Of a stretch of 36,272 nucleotides of DNA, positions 28,976 to 34,769 are shown in pieces. How positions within the stretch are numbered: position 1 is the first letter of the stretch; each line of letters starts with the position of its first letter. The position numbers and the translations under genes were made by a program. The notes below the pieces were generated by a model. That model worked only from the letters and a program-made list of their open reading frames with translations. It made no database searches and had not been told where the DNA came from. Source of the DNA: an uncultured Synechococcus sp. Lineage in GTDB: Bacteria > Cyanobacteriota > Cyanobacteriia > PCC-6307 > Cyanobiaceae. The stretch lies in assembly GCA_913057985.1 (NCBI GenBank), contig CAJXPL010000027.1:1-36272 (forward strand), given 5' to 3'.

Positions 28976-29000
28976 CCGGTCCTTCGGGGCCGGTTTTTTT
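28976..29000 (+). terminator. Rho-independent terminator of the atp operon
   Basis: CCGGTCC-TTCG-GGGCCGG (7-bp stem with one G-U pair and a UUCG loop) is followed directly by seven T residues. It lies 42 bp after the gamma stop codon. Confidence 0.92.
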
Positions 29001-29037
29001 GTGCCGTGTTAACGGTGAATCGGAGCGGTTTGAGGGT

Positions 29038-29736
29038 GTGGGCGTGCTTCAGCTTCATCAGCTCTTCCCCACCGTCGTGGCAACGACGCAACTTCCTCTC
29101 GACCCTCTGCAGCAGGCGGCCTGCATGCAGGCTCTGCTGGAGCTTCGCGGCGAGGCCGAGGGCAACCCCAGCGAGGGTTGTGCCTGGACGGGGGACCTGC
29201 ATGGGGTGTGGCAGCTGCATCAACAGCAGCCCTTTCAGGCGCTGGCTCAGCTGGTAGCCGATCAGGCCTGGGGCTATCTCAATTCGCTTGGGTTTGAGCG
29301 AAGCCAACTGGCCCTGCATCTGCAGCGTTGCTGGCCGGTGATCAGTGATTGGGATCAAGTGGGTGGTCGCCACCACCACCCCAATGCCCATCTCAGTGCT
29401 GTTCTGTACCTCACAGGTAACGGCTCGGGAGAAGAAGGCATGTTGCGGCTGCATGCGTCCCATCAACCCAATGAGTTGGTGGCGGGTTTGGCGGTGGGTT
29501 ACGGCGGCCCGATTGCTGAAGGCCAACCGTTCAATCAGGCCCACTGGGATCTGGCCCCACGCCCCGGTTTACTGGTGCTGTTTCCGTCGAGCCTGCACCA
29601 CAGCGTTCTGCCCAACGACGCCCCAGACGAGCTGCGCTGTTCGATCAGCTTTGATTTCGCCCTCACTGCGCCTGCCGAGGGGGATCCTCCGGAATACCTG
29701 GCGCCCCACCCATCGCAGTGGACTTCAGTGGAATGA
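29038..29736 (+). CDS. Putative 2OG-Fe(II) oxygenase
   Basis: A protein of about 232 aa (GTG 29038 or 29044; the frame is open to 28999) that opens VLQLHQLFPTVV. The metal site is suggested by VGGRHHHPNAHLSAVLYLTG and the distal FPSSLHHSVLPND, with RCSISFDFAL supplying the 2-oxoglutarate-binding Arg/Ser. This pattern fits the family of putative 2OG-Fe(II) oxygenases known from cyanobacteria and their phages. It lies just after the atp terminator, whose T-run ends 38 bp upstream. The substrate is unknown. Confidence 0.75.
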   Translation: MGVLQLHQLFPTVVATTQLPLDPLQQAACMQALLELRGEAEGNPSEGCAWTGDLHGVWQLHQQQPFQALAQLVADQAWGYLNSLGFERSQLALHLQRCWPVISDWDQVGGRHHHPNAHLSAVLYLTGNGSGEEGMLRLHASHQPNELVAGLAVGYGGPIAEGQPFNQAHWDLAPRPGLLVLFPSSLHHSVLPNDAPDELRCSISFDFALTAPAEGDPPEYLAPHPSQWTSVE

Positions 29737-30151
29737 GATGAATGGAGTTGTTTAAAGTTCCATTGGATTATCAATTGGAAAATACCAGCCCTGATTTTTG
29801 TATTGCATCGCTTCGGGAAAATCTGGACGATGATGGCCCTGAGTAATGGAGAACCTCTGAGTTGCTGTCTGGTTTGTAATCAACTACACGCCTCGTCCAT
29901 TGATTCGGATGCTGTAAATTTATATTATTATATGATGCAATTTGTTTGATTAAAGAATGATTCTTGTTTTTGCGGGAAATAATCTTCGTTATGTGCGCCT
30001 AAGTGTTGTCATTGATATGCGGTTTATTTCGTTGATTTTTCTCGAAATGTGCGGTCTTTCTTTTATCCCTAGTCGTTTCTGCGCTTTACGGTGTTGATGA
30101 TGATGAATCTTTCATCCAAAGTGTATGCAAGAGGTGGTTGACGGTTGATGC
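29737..30151. other. AT-rich intergenic stretch
   Basis: About 415 bp without a supportable gene. Base composition changes abruptly to AT-rich (runs such as aatttatattattatatgat near 29918-29938). Those -10-like AT runs could serve as promoters for the island gene at 30152, but none can be assigned with confidence. No tRNA or repeat is seen. Confidence 0.5.
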
Positions 30152-31303
30152 ATGGCGGGGTCTGTTATGGTGTGTTCACTTATGCCGAATTGTGTGACGC
30201 TGCAATTCACTAGTAGAATTGAAGTTTCATGTTTTAAGTCAGGCCAGCTTCTGTTGGGGTGGAAGCCGATAAGTGAATTTGAGAATGGGCTGATTGATCT
30301 TGCAAGTATTGGCTCTTGCTCACGAGGATATAAATGTTATTCAATTAATACTCTTTATGCCAATATTGACTGTGATGTCATAGCAGTACGGAGAATTTTT
30401 GATAAGTTGCCAGATAAGCCGTTGTGGGAAATCTGTTGCCCTAAGAACATTCCGCTTAATGTAAGGCCAATGGATTTTGCTCCTCTTGGTCAGCAAAAGC
30501 TAAGAATAATTTACTTCTTGAATTGCTTCGTGTCTCAATACTGGGAAATAGTCTTTAAAAGGCATTTTTGCGATCTATGTGTTTCAGGTGTGTTTTGTGG
30601 TTCTTATGATTCTTTGGTTAAAATAGTTGTAAATGGTACTCCAGAACATTTGTCAAGGGTTGTTCAACTTGCCGAAGGCTTTCTTGGCGAAGAATCTTGT
30701 GGGAGCTCGAAAGAAAATGGGGTTCTAAAAAGAAATTATGAAATCTTGTGGAGTCAAGAGAATTGTTTTGAGTATCCCGGCATTAGATCTTTTCATGAGA
30801 CATCAATGGCGCTGGAAGGGGCTGATTACGTTATATATTCTCATTGCAAAGGTTTGTCGCATCTTGAGTCTGAATCGCTTACCACCCTAGAGAGTGCTAT
30901 GTCATCAATTATGATCCTCAGAAATGTTTATGTTAATGCAGATATTTTGAATACAATTGTTTCATTAAATAAAATCGGACCTGGCCTAGGAGGCAGTGGT
31001 TGGATGTGGTTTAACTTTTACATGTGTAGGGCTTCCTATGCTAAAACTCTTCATGTACCTGTTAGGACTGAGCGCAGGCATTATTACGAGAGCTGGTTAG
31101 GTGATTTCCCAAGCGATTTTGAAACAAATCCTGTTCATGTTCCATTTAGACTGAGTGACGGATTGAGTCTTGTTGACTTGCCAAGACCTGCCATAGGTTC
31201 TAGTTGGGACCCGCGGGACATTTTCAATCATGTTCACAAAGAAAAACTTCAGATCAATTCAGGCCTTGATCAAAGTTTTGAAGTTCTAAGGGCAATCATG
31301 TGA
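30152..31303 (+). CDS. Unknown protein in AT-rich island, possibly glycan-related
   Basis: A 383-aa ORF with AT-rich codons unlike all its neighbours, so probably acquired. I do not recognise the N-terminal 200 residues. The C-terminal half has YVIYSHCKGLSHLESESL, then GLGGSGWMWFNFYMCRASYA and RRHYYESWLGDFP. This resembles, from memory, a set of putative glycosyltransferase-like proteins with a xxHxKG element and a (S/G)xxFWWA...YxxxWLG end. The link is weak. Cys is unusually frequent (about 14). The start is uncertain: ATG 30152, 30167 and 30182 are all possible. It stands alone between about 415 bp and 246 bp of AT-rich spacer. Confidence 0.6.
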   Translation: MAGSVMVCSLMPNCVTLQFTSRIEVSCFKSGQLLLGWKPISEFENGLIDLASIGSCSRGYKCYSINTLYANIDCDVIAVRRIFDKLPDKPLWEICCPKNIPLNVRPMDFAPLGQQKLRIIYFLNCFVSQYWEIVFKRHFCDLCVSGVFCGSYDSLVKIVVNGTPEHLSRVVQLAEGFLGEESCGSSKENGVLKRNYEILWSQENCFEYPGIRSFHETSMALEGADYVIYSHCKGLSHLESESLTTLESAMSSIMILRNVYVNADILNTIVSLNKIGPGLGGSGWMWFNFYMCRASYAKTLHVPVRTERRHYYESWLGDFPSDFETNPVHVPFRLSDGLSLVDLPRPAIGSSWDPRDIFNHVHKEKLQINSGLDQSFEVLRAIM

Positions 31304-31549
31304 TTTCGTCACTTGAATCTTTGCGAATCCACTTTAATTTTATATGTCTTTTTCGATGAAGTTACGGTTTTTGGTTGACCCCGATATTTGGCCAGTTTGT
31401 CTTGGCTGTTAATATTAGATGGACTCTCTTGTTGGCGGTTGGGGTTGTTTTCATGGGCTAAATTGCTATTGAAGCGTTACGGGGGGATGACTTAATTCTG
31501 GGGAGGTCTGTTCTTTATGATTGCTTCTAATTCATTGACTCACCACGGC
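31304..31549. other. AT-rich spacer at island end
   Basis: 246 bp between the island gene and the ferredoxin gene. AT-rich up to about 31540, then composition returns to the host level. It probably holds the ferredoxin promoter, but no boxes stand out. Confidence 0.35.
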
Positions 31550-31879
31550 ATGTCCGACGTGGCCACCTACACCGTCCGCGCCGAGTTTGAAGGCACCACC
31601 CACAGCTTCAGCTGCCGTGCCGATCAGACCGTGCTCAACGCGGCGGAAGCCGCCGGTGTCACCCTGCCCAGTTCCTGTTGTTCCGGTGTCTGCACCACCT
31701 GTGCCGCGCTGATCAGCGAAGGGTCGGTGGATCAGCCTGATGCCATGGGTGTGAAGGCGGATCTGCAGCAACAGGGTTACGCCTTGCTCTGTGTGGCCTT
31801 CCCCCGCGCCGATCTCAGCTTGAAAGCCGGCCAGGAGGATGCCTTGTACGAGGCGCAGTTCGGGCAATACCAGAAGTGA
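31550..31879 (+). CDS. [2Fe-2S] plant-type ferredoxin
   Basis: A 109-aa ferredoxin with cluster ligands in PSSCCSGVCTTCAALI (Cx4Cx2C) and the fourth Cys in YALLCVAFPRADL. It is an electron carrier in the cytoplasm. The tail KAGQEDALYEAQFGQYQK matches the C-terminally extended ferredoxins common in picocyanobacteria rather than the main photosynthetic PetF. ATG 31550 is chosen, since SDVATYTVRAEFEG is the natural first strand; the upstream start at 31517 lies in the AT-rich flank. Its stop overlaps the next gene by four bases. Confidence 0.92.
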   Translation: MSDVATYTVRAEFEGTTHSFSCRADQTVLNAAEAAGVTLPSSCCSGVCTTCAALISEGSVDQPDAMGVKADLQQQGYALLCVAFPRADLSLKAGQEDALYEAQFGQYQK

Positions 31880-32130
31880 ACCTGCGTCGCCTGGACCGTC
31901 AGCTGCTCTGGCCCGAGGCGGTGCCAGCAGAACGGTTGGGTGGATGGATTCGTCAGCAGCTGCAGCCTGAAGGCCAACTCTTGCGTTGGGCGATCACGGC
32001 GGTGAACAGCGATGCCGCCGGTCAGCGTTGGCTGCAGGTGGAGGCTGTTGTTGAGATTGGTGCTTCTGAGCAGGAGGCTGTTGTGCAGGTGGGTGCGGCT
32101 GTTGAGCAGGAAGCCGTGGTTCAGCCATGA
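31876..32130 (+). CDS. Small hypothetical protein with repeated acidic tail
   Basis: An 84-aa ORF from GTG 31876 (GTGA overlap with ferredoxin) to a TGA overlapping the DUF3326 ATG (ATGA at 32127-32130). The coupling on both sides argues that it is real. Residues 1-55 (LRRLDRQLLWPEAVPAERLG, LLRWAITAVNSDAAGQRWLQVEAVV) look like a small alpha/beta domain. The tail contains imperfect repeats of the form EQEAVVQ(V/P). I know no function; linkage to a ferredoxin suggests a redox partner, as inference only. Confidence 0.65.
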   Translation: MNLRRLDRQLLWPEAVPAERLGGWIRQQLQPEGQLLRWAITAVNSDAAGQRWLQVEAVVEIGASEQEAVVQVGAAVEQEAVVQP

Positions 32131-33188
32131 GTGCGACGGCGCTGCCGGTGCTGATGCTGGTGCCGACGGGCATCGGTTGTGCCATCGGCGGCTACGCCGG
32201 CGACGCAATGCCCAGTGCGCGGGTGCTGGCCGCGGCGAGTGGATGCCTTATCACCCACCCGAATGTGATGAACGGGGCCGCCCTCTACTGGAGCGACCCC
32301 CGCATTCACTATGTGGAGGGCTACGGCCTGGATCGCTTTGCCGTCGGTGCCTGGGACCTGCGGCCGGTGCTGCGCCAGCGGATCGGGCTGTTGCTCGATG
32401 CCGGCATTGAGCCGGAGCTGGCGCAACGGCAGATTCAGGTGGCGGAGGGTTGTCGCGCCACGTTGGGGCTGGAGATCGGACCGGTGCTGACGACGGATGC
32501 GCCCCTCGGGGTCCACCTGGAACAGGGGGCCAGTGGCGCCAGCTGGGGAACCCTGGATCGTCATGATGCCTTGCTGCGGGCGGGCGAGCGGCTGCAGGCG
32601 GCCGGGGCCACCGCCATCGCCGTGGTGGCCCGCTTCCCGGAGGATCCGCAAAGTGATGCCTTGGCGGCCTACCGCGCTGGTAGCGGCGTTGATGCCCTGG
32701 CTGGGGCCGAGGCGGTGATCAGTCATCTGCTGGTGCAACACCTGCAGATTCCCTGTGCCCATGCGCCGGCCTTGGATCCGTTGCCCCTGGATCCACAGTT
32801 GGATCCGCGCGCTGCTGGAGAGGAGCTGGGCTACACCTTTCTGGCCTGCGTCCTGGTGGGTCTGAGCCGGGCGCCGGATCTGGTGGCGGCCGGCCAAGGC
32901 GTGGTGGGGAGCGATCGGTTGAGGGCCGATCAACTGGGTGCGGTGGTGGTGCCGAACGGTGCCCTCGGCGGCGAGTCCGTTCTGGCCTGCCTGGAGCGCG
33001 GGGTGCCGGTGATCAGCGTGGTCAACCCCTCGCTGCTGTCGGTGACGGCGGACGCCCTCGGGATCGGCAGTGGGGTGCATGCTGCGGCCAGTTATGCCGA
33101 AGCTGCCGGTCTGGTGCTGGCCCTGCGCGAGGGAGTGGCGCCGGCATCGCTGGGCCGGCCGTTGCCAGGGTTGGAGAGGCTCAACTAA
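32127..33188 (+). CDS. DUF3326 family protein
   Basis: A 353-aa protein matching the DUF3326 family of cyanobacteria and plastids: it opens LMLVPTGIGCAIGGYAGDAMP, then HPNVMNGAALYW and YVEGYGLDRFAVG, and near the end VVVPNGALGGESVLACLERGVPVISV. The glycine-rich loops suggest a nucleotide- or substrate-binding fold of unknown function. Coupled to the upstream ORF by ATGA; 13 bp before the YchJ gene. Confidence 0.88.
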   Translation: MSATALPVLMLVPTGIGCAIGGYAGDAMPSARVLAAASGCLITHPNVMNGAALYWSDPRIHYVEGYGLDRFAVGAWDLRPVLRQRIGLLLDAGIEPELAQRQIQVAEGCRATLGLEIGPVLTTDAPLGVHLEQGASGASWGTLDRHDALLRAGERLQAAGATAIAVVARFPEDPQSDALAAYRAGSGVDALAGAEAVISHLLVQHLQIPCAHAPALDPLPLDPQLDPRAAGEELGYTFLACVLVGLSRAPDLVAAGQGVVGSDRLRADQLGAVVVPNGALGGESVLACLERGVPVISVVNPSLLSVTADALGIGSGVHAAASYAEAAGLVLALREGVAPASLGRPLPGLERLN

Positions 33189-33201
33189 TGGTGCCGAATT
33201 G

Positions 33202-33633
33202 ATGCCTAAGGGATTCGCGGCGTCGGCGGATCAGGACCCGTGCCCCTGTGGTGGTGGGTTGTATGGCCGTTGCTGCGGCCCTTTGCACCGGGGAGAGCAA
33301 CGTGCGCTCACCGCGGAGCAGCTGATGCGATCCCGCTACTCCGCTTTCGCCCGGGGGGAGGTGGACTACCTGATCGCCACCCATCCCGAGCCCCATCAGC
33401 AGGCCTCCCAGCGCCGGCGGGAGCTGCAGCGCAGTTGCCGCCAGACCCGGTGGCTGGGGCTGGAGATCATCGCCGTCAGCGGCGGCGGCGGGGACCTGGA
33501 GGGCACCGTGCAGTTCGAGGCCCGTTACCAAGGCGGTGTGCTGCGGGAAACCTCCCTGTTCCAGCGCCGGGATGGGCAGCCTGAAGGTGATTGGCTCTAC
33601 ATCCGGGCCGTCGATCTGGATGCTGAGAGCTAG
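33202..33633 (+). CDS. YchJ family (UPF0225) SEC-C motif protein
   Basis: A 143-aa protein with an N-terminal SEC-C-like zinc motif DPCPCGGGLYGRCCGPLH and the YchJ signature LTAEQLMRSRYSAFARGEVDYLIATHP, followed by an NTF2-like region (VQFEARYQGGVLRETSLFQR). Function unknown. ATG 33202 is selected because the zinc motif follows at once. Its TAG and the TAG of convergent ald share the palindrome CTAG at 33630-33633. Confidence 0.9.
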   Translation: MPKGFAASADQDPCPCGGGLYGRCCGPLHRGEQRALTAEQLMRSRYSAFARGEVDYLIATHPEPHQQASQRRRELQRSCRQTRWLGLEIIAVSGGGGDLEGTVQFEARYQGGVLRETSLFQRRDGQPEGDWLYIRAVDLDAES

Positions 33634-34769
33634 CGCAGGCAGGCCATCGGGTGCCGCGGCGGCAGGCCGAGGGCCTTGGCGACGCCGGGATGGCAGACCG
33701 AGCCCTGCACCGTGTTCAGGCCTGACAACAGTTCCGGCCGTTCTGTGACCGCCTCCTCCAGGCCCCGGCCAGCGATGCCAAGGATGTAGGGCAGCGTGAC
33801 GCTCACCAGCGCTTCGGTGGAGGTGAACGGCACCGCACCGGGCATGTTGCCGACCGCGTAGTGCTGCACACCGTGGATGCTCACGGTGGGATCGGTGTGG
33901 GTGGTTTCGCGGCTGGTGGCGATGCAGCCCCCCTGGTCGATCGCCACATCCACGATCACCGAACCGGGCCGCATCTGCTTCACCATCTGCTCGTCCACCA
34001 GGGTGGGGGCGCGCCCACCGGGGGTAAGCACGGCTCCGATCACCAGATCCGCTGTCGGCACCAACCGTTCCAGAAGCCCGCGGCTGCTCACCACACTCAT
34101 CAAGCGACCGCGCCGGTCGGCCTCCAGGCTGCGCAACCGCTTGGGTGAGCGGTCGAGCAGCAACACCTCGGCATCCATGGCGGCGGCCGTTCGTGCGGCA
34201 TTCCATCCCACGGTGCCGGCGCCAAGCACCACCACCCGGGCCGGTTGCACGCCGGTGCAGCCCCCCATCAAAACGCCCCGGCCGCCGTGTGGTTTCTCCA
34301 GCAGGTGAGCTCCAACCTGGGCCGCCAAGCGCCCCGCGATTTCGCTCATCGGTGCCAGCAACGGCAGGCTGCCGTTCTCCAGCTGCACGGTTTCGTAGGC
34401 GATGGCAGCGGTGCCTGCCTCCAGCAGGGCCTCGCCAACGCTGGGATAGGCGGCCAGGTGCAGGTAGGTGAACAGCACCATGTCCTTCCGCAGATAAACA
34501 AATTCCTCCGCCTGCGGTTCCTTCACCTTCACCACCAAATGGGCGCCCCAGGCCTCGTCGCGGCTCACCATTTGGGCACCGGCGGCGGCGAAGGCGTCGT
34601 CACCGATTCCCGCTCCAGCCCCGGCTCCGGTTTCGATGCGCACCTCCAAGCCTTGGCTCACCAGTTCCCGCACCGCATCGGGAGTCAGCGCCACGCGCTG
34701 CTCATCGAGCTTGATCTCCTTCGGCACACCGATGCTGGCCATCGGGGCCGAGAGAACGGAGGCTGCCAT
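33630..34769 (-). CDS. ald: Alanine dehydrogenase
   Basis: A 379-aa NAD-dependent enzyme interconverting L-alanine with pyruvate and ammonium. It opens ASIGVPKEIKLDEQRVALTPD, with the substrate Lys region KVKEPQ, catalytic His in YLHLAAYP, the NAD fold VVVLGAGTVGWNAARTAAAM, and catalytic Asp in VDVAIDQGG. Full length. Start ATG 34767-34769; an ATG nine codons on (34740-34742) sits exactly at the core and is an alternative. It is 73 bp downstream of nadE on the same strand. Confidence 0.95.
   Translation of the reverse strand: MAASVLSAPMASIGVPKEIKLDEQRVALTPDAVRELVSQGLEVRIETGAGAGAGIGDDAFAAAGAQMVSRDEAWGAHLVVKVKEPQAEEFVYLRKDMVLFTYLHLAAYPSVGEALLEAGTAAIAYETVQLENGSLPLLAPMSEIAGRLAAQVGAHLLEKPHGGRGVLMGGCTGVQPARVVVLGAGTVGWNAARTAAAMDAEVLLLDRSPKRLRSLEADRRGRLMSVVSSRGLLERLVPTADLVIGAVLTPGGRAPTLVDEQMVKQMRPGSVIVDVAIDQGGCIATSRETTHTDPTVSIHGVQHYAVGNMPGAVPFTSTEALVSVTLPYILGIAGRGLEEAVTERPELLSGLNTVQGSVCHPGVAKALGLPPRHPMACLR

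Follow-up and report, generated by a model that had tools for sequence, protein, structure and literature searches.

The AT-rich DNA inserted between two core genes of an uncultured, probably marine Synechococcus sp. contains a single intact gene, ORF383, and it is likely that its 383-aa product is a GT-A glycosyltransferase that transfers a single sugar to a glycan of the cell surface, and that the gene was imported within a recombined tract of ~4.3 kb. An orphan between core genes thereby becomes a testable candidate enzyme, and if ORF383 does edit the surface glycan, it bears on the phage resistance of an abundant ocean phototroph; lipopolysaccharide is described as a receptor for some cyanophages (PMC4390846).

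The window (the whole stretch of DNA that was analyzed, 36,272 nucleotides) is contig C27 of a draft genome of 2.43 Mb (61 contigs, 99.58% complete, contamination 0.06). The features of the locus are as follows, the ends of the insertion having been judged by eye against the empty sites of relatives.

~29745..31525, no strand: AT-rich insertion, with the 2OG oxygenase gene on its left and the ferredoxin gene on its right
28999..29736, + strand: 2OG-Fe(II) oxygenase gene, left neighbor (PF13759, E 1.3e-18), with its last ~100 bp in the mosaic tract
30152..31303, + strand: ORF383, probable GT-A glycosyltransferase (open reading frame, homology, profile matches)
31550..31879, + strand: 2Fe-2S ferredoxin gene, right neighbor (PF00111, E 4.4e-16), start set by comparison with relatives
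29640..33950, no strand: mosaic tract, from informative sites; flanks resemble genome G009 inside and genomes G013, G004 and G024 outside

The GC content is 39.7% in 29746-31525 versus 62.9% across the remaining window, and ORF383 itself has 39.9% GC (34.5% at third positions), versus 60-70% and 68-82%, respectively, in five neighboring genes; the initial annotation, which had described a shift in base and codon use and a single gene in an AT-rich island, is thus borne out. Chance would not be expected to produce an open stretch as long as the one here (384 codons, the longest); 2000 sequences simulated with a first-order Markov model of the region gave none above 227. The edges had been described as free of tRNA and repeats, and so they are: the whole window holds no tRNA and no pair of repeats of note flanks the island. 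A search of 29600-31700 against Rfam gave zero matches at E up to 1, and no phage genes occur within the insert. The abrupt change in composition, in a draft of 61 contigs, would also fit a misassembly that joined foreign DNA to the contig; this explanation is extremely improbable, as the gene order of relatives continues with the neighboring genes on both sides and the contamination is low.

Comparison with relatives shows that the AT-rich stretch is an insertion between neighboring genes. The ferredoxin of the right flank was detected in 29 of 34 genus genomes, and in 22 of the 28 other genus loci a stretch of 44-56 bp separates the end of the oxygenase match from the ferredoxin match (L035 counts among the 22 by a short oxygenase match alone, the gap in minus-strand loci being computed from match coordinates); in the window the same gap is ~1.8 kb. 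Clear orthologs in most relatives, which the initial annotation had named as evidence against its reading, were not found, the insert DNA being present in one of the 34 genus genomes. At the protein level six of these genomes gave any match to ORF383 at E up to 1, namely its own genome and five weak matches (E 0.03 to 0.3). Three of the five fall in an open frame of 601-618 aa, which was rejected as a relative: the two copies inspected lack the motifs of ORF383 and appear by eye to be flavodiiron/flavin-reductase-like. Apart from the 22 loci with the short gap, the 28 comprise one with a weak oxygenase remnant and five without an oxygenase match, in one of which the contig begins 250 bp upstream. 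The spot upstream of the ferredoxin is variable in other ways too; the oxygenase is degenerate in L040 and was not found in L039 (where the sequence is too short), L041, L042, L046 or L049.

The foreign tract reaches beyond the island: ~2.4 kb to its right and ~100 bp to its left also resemble another lineage. Informative sites were defined as positions where G013, G004 and G024 agree against G009. Letters of the G009 type occupy 5 of 140 such sites before 29640 and 12 of 17 between 29640 and the oxygenase stop codon. To the right of the island the counts are 329 of 395 (31531 to 33950) and 4 of 159 (past 33950); Fisher tests of the two switches give 1.1e-10 and 1.6e-77, with cut points picked from the same data. 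The left edge of the tract is defined by the 17 sites, five of them non-G009, and the sites nearest the island are contrary, as the three that immediately precede the oxygenase stop codon and the four that directly follow the island all carry the non-G009 letter. Identity profiles follow the same course: per kilobase, identity to G013 is 93-96% between 24 kb and the island and 97-98% past 34 kb, and at 31.5-34.0 kb it is 73-79%, with G009 at 86-90%; G004 and G024 give profiles like that of G013. Such dips alone are weak proof, because a second one (85-87%) occurs at 22-24 kb. The site-by-site switches therefore place the island within a recombined tract of ~4.3 kb from a G009-like lineage. The G009-like right flank (31546-33950) covers the ferredoxin gene and the 3' part of an alanine dehydrogenase-like gene.

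G009 itself (58% complete) has an empty site with a gap of 51 bp, so the insertion would have arisen in another member of the G009-like lineage. The AT-rich DNA would first have been inserted there, and the ~4.3 kb tract with its gene would then have been exchanged into the present chromosome by homologous recombination. Delivery of the island by homologous recombination can explain why integrase, tRNA and repeats are missing at the locus. The mosaic tract would thus represent a route for a foreign gene into a marine cyanobacterium without the marks of a mobile element, that is, allelic exchange around an insertion made elsewhere.

ORF383 belongs to no family in searches of Pfam (E up to 10), NCBIfam or PHROGs, and a sequence search of the PDB gave nothing significant. 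To this extent the original statement that the product has no close family holds; it fails for remote homology, which identified relatives in Prochlorococcus, on an E. coli plasmid and in viruses, so that ORF383 can no longer be called a protein without recognizable relatives. A search of 400 genomes of the taxonomic family gave one clear relative (E 1.6e-20), in Prochlorococcus sp. AG-402-K21 (L020:7740-8924). Matches in 11 further genomes of the family (besides its own and G204) at E 0.008 to 0.1 were set aside as noise, because the two-row profile retains just two genomes, the same two and no others among the 400 family and 386 phylum genomes. Genome contigs gave no relative when searched with ORF383 alone and one when searched with the alignment. 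The two-row profile also revealed a further relative in G732 (L050:1462-2637), two of 266 genomes of that Prochlorococcus genus giving a match. A plasmid search found a hypothetical protein of 207 aa on E. coli plasmid pEC81-2 (WP_241466692.1, E 6e-4); among 5426 complete E. coli genomes, two contain its DNA. ORF383 and these three homologs (the four cellular rows) have in common the motifs E-[YF]-x-G, Y-x-H-x-K-G, G-[WF]-x-W-x-N-F and Y-Y-E-x-[WL]-[LI]-G, which are located in ORF383 as follows.

30152..30490, + strand: N-terminal region, codons 1-113, weakly aligned with the two Prochlorococcus homologs and absent from the E. coli protein
30491..31114, + strand: core, codons 114-321, aligned with the viral family profile (114-321; 114-318 in a second alignment)
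30770..30781, + strand: E-Y-P-G, residues 207-210; E and G in 4/4 cellular rows, E invariant in the viral family
30836..30859, + strand: Y-S-H-C-K-G-L-S, residues 229-236; Y-x-H-x-K-G in 4/4 cellular rows
30998..31018, + strand: G-W-M-W-F-N-F, residues 283-289; the subfamily's counterpart of the viral H-F-x-G-N-F-W-W
31082..31102, + strand: Y-Y-E-S-W-L-G, residues 311-317; Y-Y-E and G in 4/4 cellular rows, E invariant in the viral family

YSHCKG and YYESWLG, singled out in the initial annotation as a possible glycan-enzyme signature, are both among the motifs common to the homologs, and a glycan enzyme is likely. The many cysteines noted at the same time are real in number (16) and form no signature common to the homologs, which have 4, 5 and 4: no cysteine of ORF383 is matched by Cys throughout the homologs, and just two are matched in a single homolog apiece. 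A Cys-rich protein that binds a metal or a cluster was rejected, the cysteines not being common to the homologs.

The two Prochlorococcus proteins resemble ORF383 in having all four core motifs, a similar length and an N-terminal region, at 26-28% identity, but their genes are located in surface-glycan clusters, whereas ORF383 is alone between core genes. The AG-402-K21 gene sits between a GT11 gene and a GT2 gene (Pfam) in a cluster that by eye also includes rmlC-, rmlD- and rmlB-like genes, an initiating sugar transferase and an ABC transporter, and the neighborhood in G732 is, by eye, of a similar surface-glycan type; ORF383 adjoins housekeeping genes, away from any glycan cluster. The E. 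coli protein also has all four core motifs (27.9% identity over residues 201-319), but it differs from ORF383 in lacking the N-terminal region and in its setting, a stretch rich in IS elements that also encodes a nucleotide sugar dehydrogenase. This glycan-type stretch, with the distant homolog of ORF383, is at L051:6643-10889 (NZ_CP088132.1) and also in NZ_CP195954.1.

The core of ORF383 is, as judged by profile comparison, homologous to a large virus-borne family. Phage collections gave no relative of ORF383 by sequence, and searches of viral contigs with ORF383 or with the cellular alignments gave no confirmed relative. A first motif pattern matched 63 viral stretches, and a profile search of 136 loci that followed it yielded no relative, with one chance-like match at E 0.64. 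When viral contigs were scanned for the motif H-F-x-G-N-F-W-W, at least 120 stretches were obtained. Of those listed, 109 have an H-x-K-G earlier in the reading frame, which in at least one case (L139) is far off and so spurious. The right spacing is found in 104 rows, which were thinned to 57; alignment A6 contains 47 rows and A7 57. The A6 profile, prepared from viral sequences alone with zero cellular rows, matched two of 251 family genomes: ORF383 alone in the present genome (E 2.4e-7), and AG-402-K21 (E 2.2e-16). Profile-profile comparison of the viral family with the four cellular rows gave E 1.7e-18, and hhalign with ORF383 alone gave E 2.6e-8. Both results stand well clear of their controls, ORF383 scoring 31.5 bits versus at most 4.7 in 2000 shuffles, and hhalign 60.4 versus at most 24.7 in 150 shuffles. 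A second scan, for H-F-[SAC]-G-N-F-W, produced 230 viral stretches, of which 221 were confirmed as relatives.

Twelve columns are invariant in the 57 rows of A7, none of them Asp; the ten that belong to H-x-K-G and H-F-x-G-N-F-W-W are invariant by construction, because the rows were chosen by those motifs, and the invariant columns outside the search and selection keys are two Glu columns. ORF383 keeps eight of the 12, including H-x-K-G and both Glu columns (E207, H231, K233, G234, E313), and the changed positions are the His, the Gly and two Trp of H-F-x-G-N-F-W-W. In place of the strict motif ORF383 reads G-W-M-W-F-N-F-Y-M, with F, N and F kept, and it is therefore classed as a related, separate subfamily and not as a member of the family. 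The core matches the viral profile at ~17% identity in the profile alignment, but ORF383 is unlike the viral proteins in lacking the strict H-F-x-G-N-F-W-W and in having an N-terminal region. In L139 and L228, H-x-K-S replaces H-x-K-G before H-F-S-G-N-F-W-W.

Six viral members (6 of the 47 A6 rows) gave no match to PHROGs at E 0.001, and the same six gave chance-level matches only, far below cut-offs, to Pfam and NCBIfam; the family is thus common in viruses and matches no model of these three collections in the members scanned. A Pfam scan of nine of the 12 viral ORFs longer than 330 aa (left out were one duplicate, L202 and L228) found fusion to Pfam glycosyltransferase domains in five (L139, L172, L173, L199, L222), to a methyltransferase in three (L161, L190, L255) and to DUF3431 in one (L142). 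Cyanophage S-SRM01 has a member (QPX48307.1, 191.6 bits) that is annotated as a hypothetical protein; genes for a sulfotransferase and a glycosyltransferase are found a few genes away.

That the family is common in viral contigs and has a member in S-SRM01 raises the possibility that ORF383 is a leftover cyanophage gene whose product would act on virion sugars or on phage DNA instead of on the cell surface. This is very unlikely: the insert contains no phage gene, phage and viral collections gave no close relative by sequence, and the nearest homologs are cellular and located in glycan clusters. Somewhat less remote, though still unlikely, is a relic, that is, a glycosyltransferase gene that was imported by recombination, does not work and is kept by chance. 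Its restriction to one of 34 genus genomes, the four changed columns that are invariant in the viral family, the 16 cysteines versus 4-5 in the homologs and the lack of an adjoining gene of its kind are all consistent with decay, but the 384-codon frame is intact and ORF383 retains every motif common to the other three cellular rows.

The fold was approached through the viral relatives, as the model of ORF383 itself (from a two-row alignment) has a pLDDT of 38 and is unusable. A viral member predicted with 57 rows gave pLDDT 94.4 and pTM 0.91, and is confidently predicted to have a GT-A fold. Its best match by VIA-align among those listed is heparosan synthase 2 (Z 13.1, 2.7 Å, 164 residues), followed by ArnC (Z 12.0) and mannosylglycerate synthase (Z 11.8). 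GlmU and IspD score Z 11.3-11.6 in the same comparison, and in a Foldseek search of the PDB with the viral model IspD and a cytidylyltransferase lead (E 2.9e-4 and 6.2e-4); on these matches ORF383 might instead be a related enzyme that uses nucleotides and folds similarly, for example a nucleotidyltransferase. We regard this as improbable, since the top Z values belong to glycosyltransferases and the fusion partners of the viral proteins are glycosyltransferase and methyltransferase domains. Moreover, the viral structures closest to the viral model are called glycosyltransferase, uncharacterized, or nameless, so that those with an informative name point to a glycosyltransferase.

As a glycosyltransferase, ORF383 would share the GT-A fold of its viral relative. 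No D-x-D was found by eye in its residues 114-321. This metal-binding motif is usual but not universal in GT-A enzymes, and its lack leaves a GT-A fold possible, because metal-independent GT-A enzymes exist. In the viral model the His of H-x-K-G is at the end of strand 86-91, and it is at that strand end that D-x-D is usually found in GT-A enzymes. H-x-K-G would thus occupy the usual place of D-x-D, and His and Lys, not a metal, would therefore hold the phosphates of the donor, making ORF383 probably metal-independent. The conserved Glu of Y-Y-E or that of E-Y-P-G would act as catalytic base, and the sugar would be added to lipopolysaccharide or exopolysaccharide during its build-up in the cytoplasm. 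The donor would be a deoxysugar, most likely L-rhamnose. An rmlD gene is present on contig C4 between two RgpF-type genes, and to judge from its genes the host is probably able to make dTDP-L-rhamnose; rhamnosyl specificity of ORF383 itself is perhaps to be expected, and is the weakest step in the proposal.

Domain 2 of A064R from chlorovirus PBCV-1 is described as an inverting, cation-independent alpha-L-rhamnosyltransferase that shows no homology to rhamnosyltransferases annotated as such; a methyltransferase domain follows it (PMC9614988). Its independence of cations resembles the mechanism suggested for ORF383, and the methyltransferase that comes next has a parallel in the three viral members fused to one. 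Among the viral structure matches is a protein of 638 aa, equal in length to A064R, which is a lead only, because the match is nameless and the likeness is one of length. RgpF (PF05045) can be aligned collinearly with the viral family and has H-S-K-K-S at the place of H-x-K-G. Profile-profile comparison of the two gave E 0.0051 (probability 7%), and a rerun gave E 0.0015 with a score of 29.8, which none of 150 column shuffles equaled (best 26.7), suggesting at most a weak, remote tie of the viral family to RgpF. ORF383 itself gave no Pfam match to PF05045 at E up to 10, and comparison of its cellular group with RgpF was not significant (E 0.12 and 0.2). A broader and rather doubtful proposal is that ORF383 represents a cellular branch of an extensive, uncataloged superfamily of H-x-K metal-independent rhamnosyltransferases, which would join A064R domain 2, proteins of phages and giant viruses, surface-glycan enzymes of cyanobacteria and enterobacteria and, remotely, RgpF, and whose single genes would travel between Synechococcus lineages by homologous recombination, changing the surface to which phages bind.

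The junction itself offers a further observation. The sequence TGAGAGAAT (29734-29743, and at the equivalent position in L022-L049) overlaps the stop codon of the oxygenase gene and lies 32-55 bp before the ferredoxin match. The pattern TGA[GC]AG[AGT]AT occurs in 25 of the 28 genus loci (21 exact), and also in L041 and L049, in which the oxygenase was not found; the version in the window is TGAGATGAAT, which is separated from the ferredoxin by the insert. The TGAGATGAAT site is perhaps a lost -10 element of a putative ferredoxin promoter.
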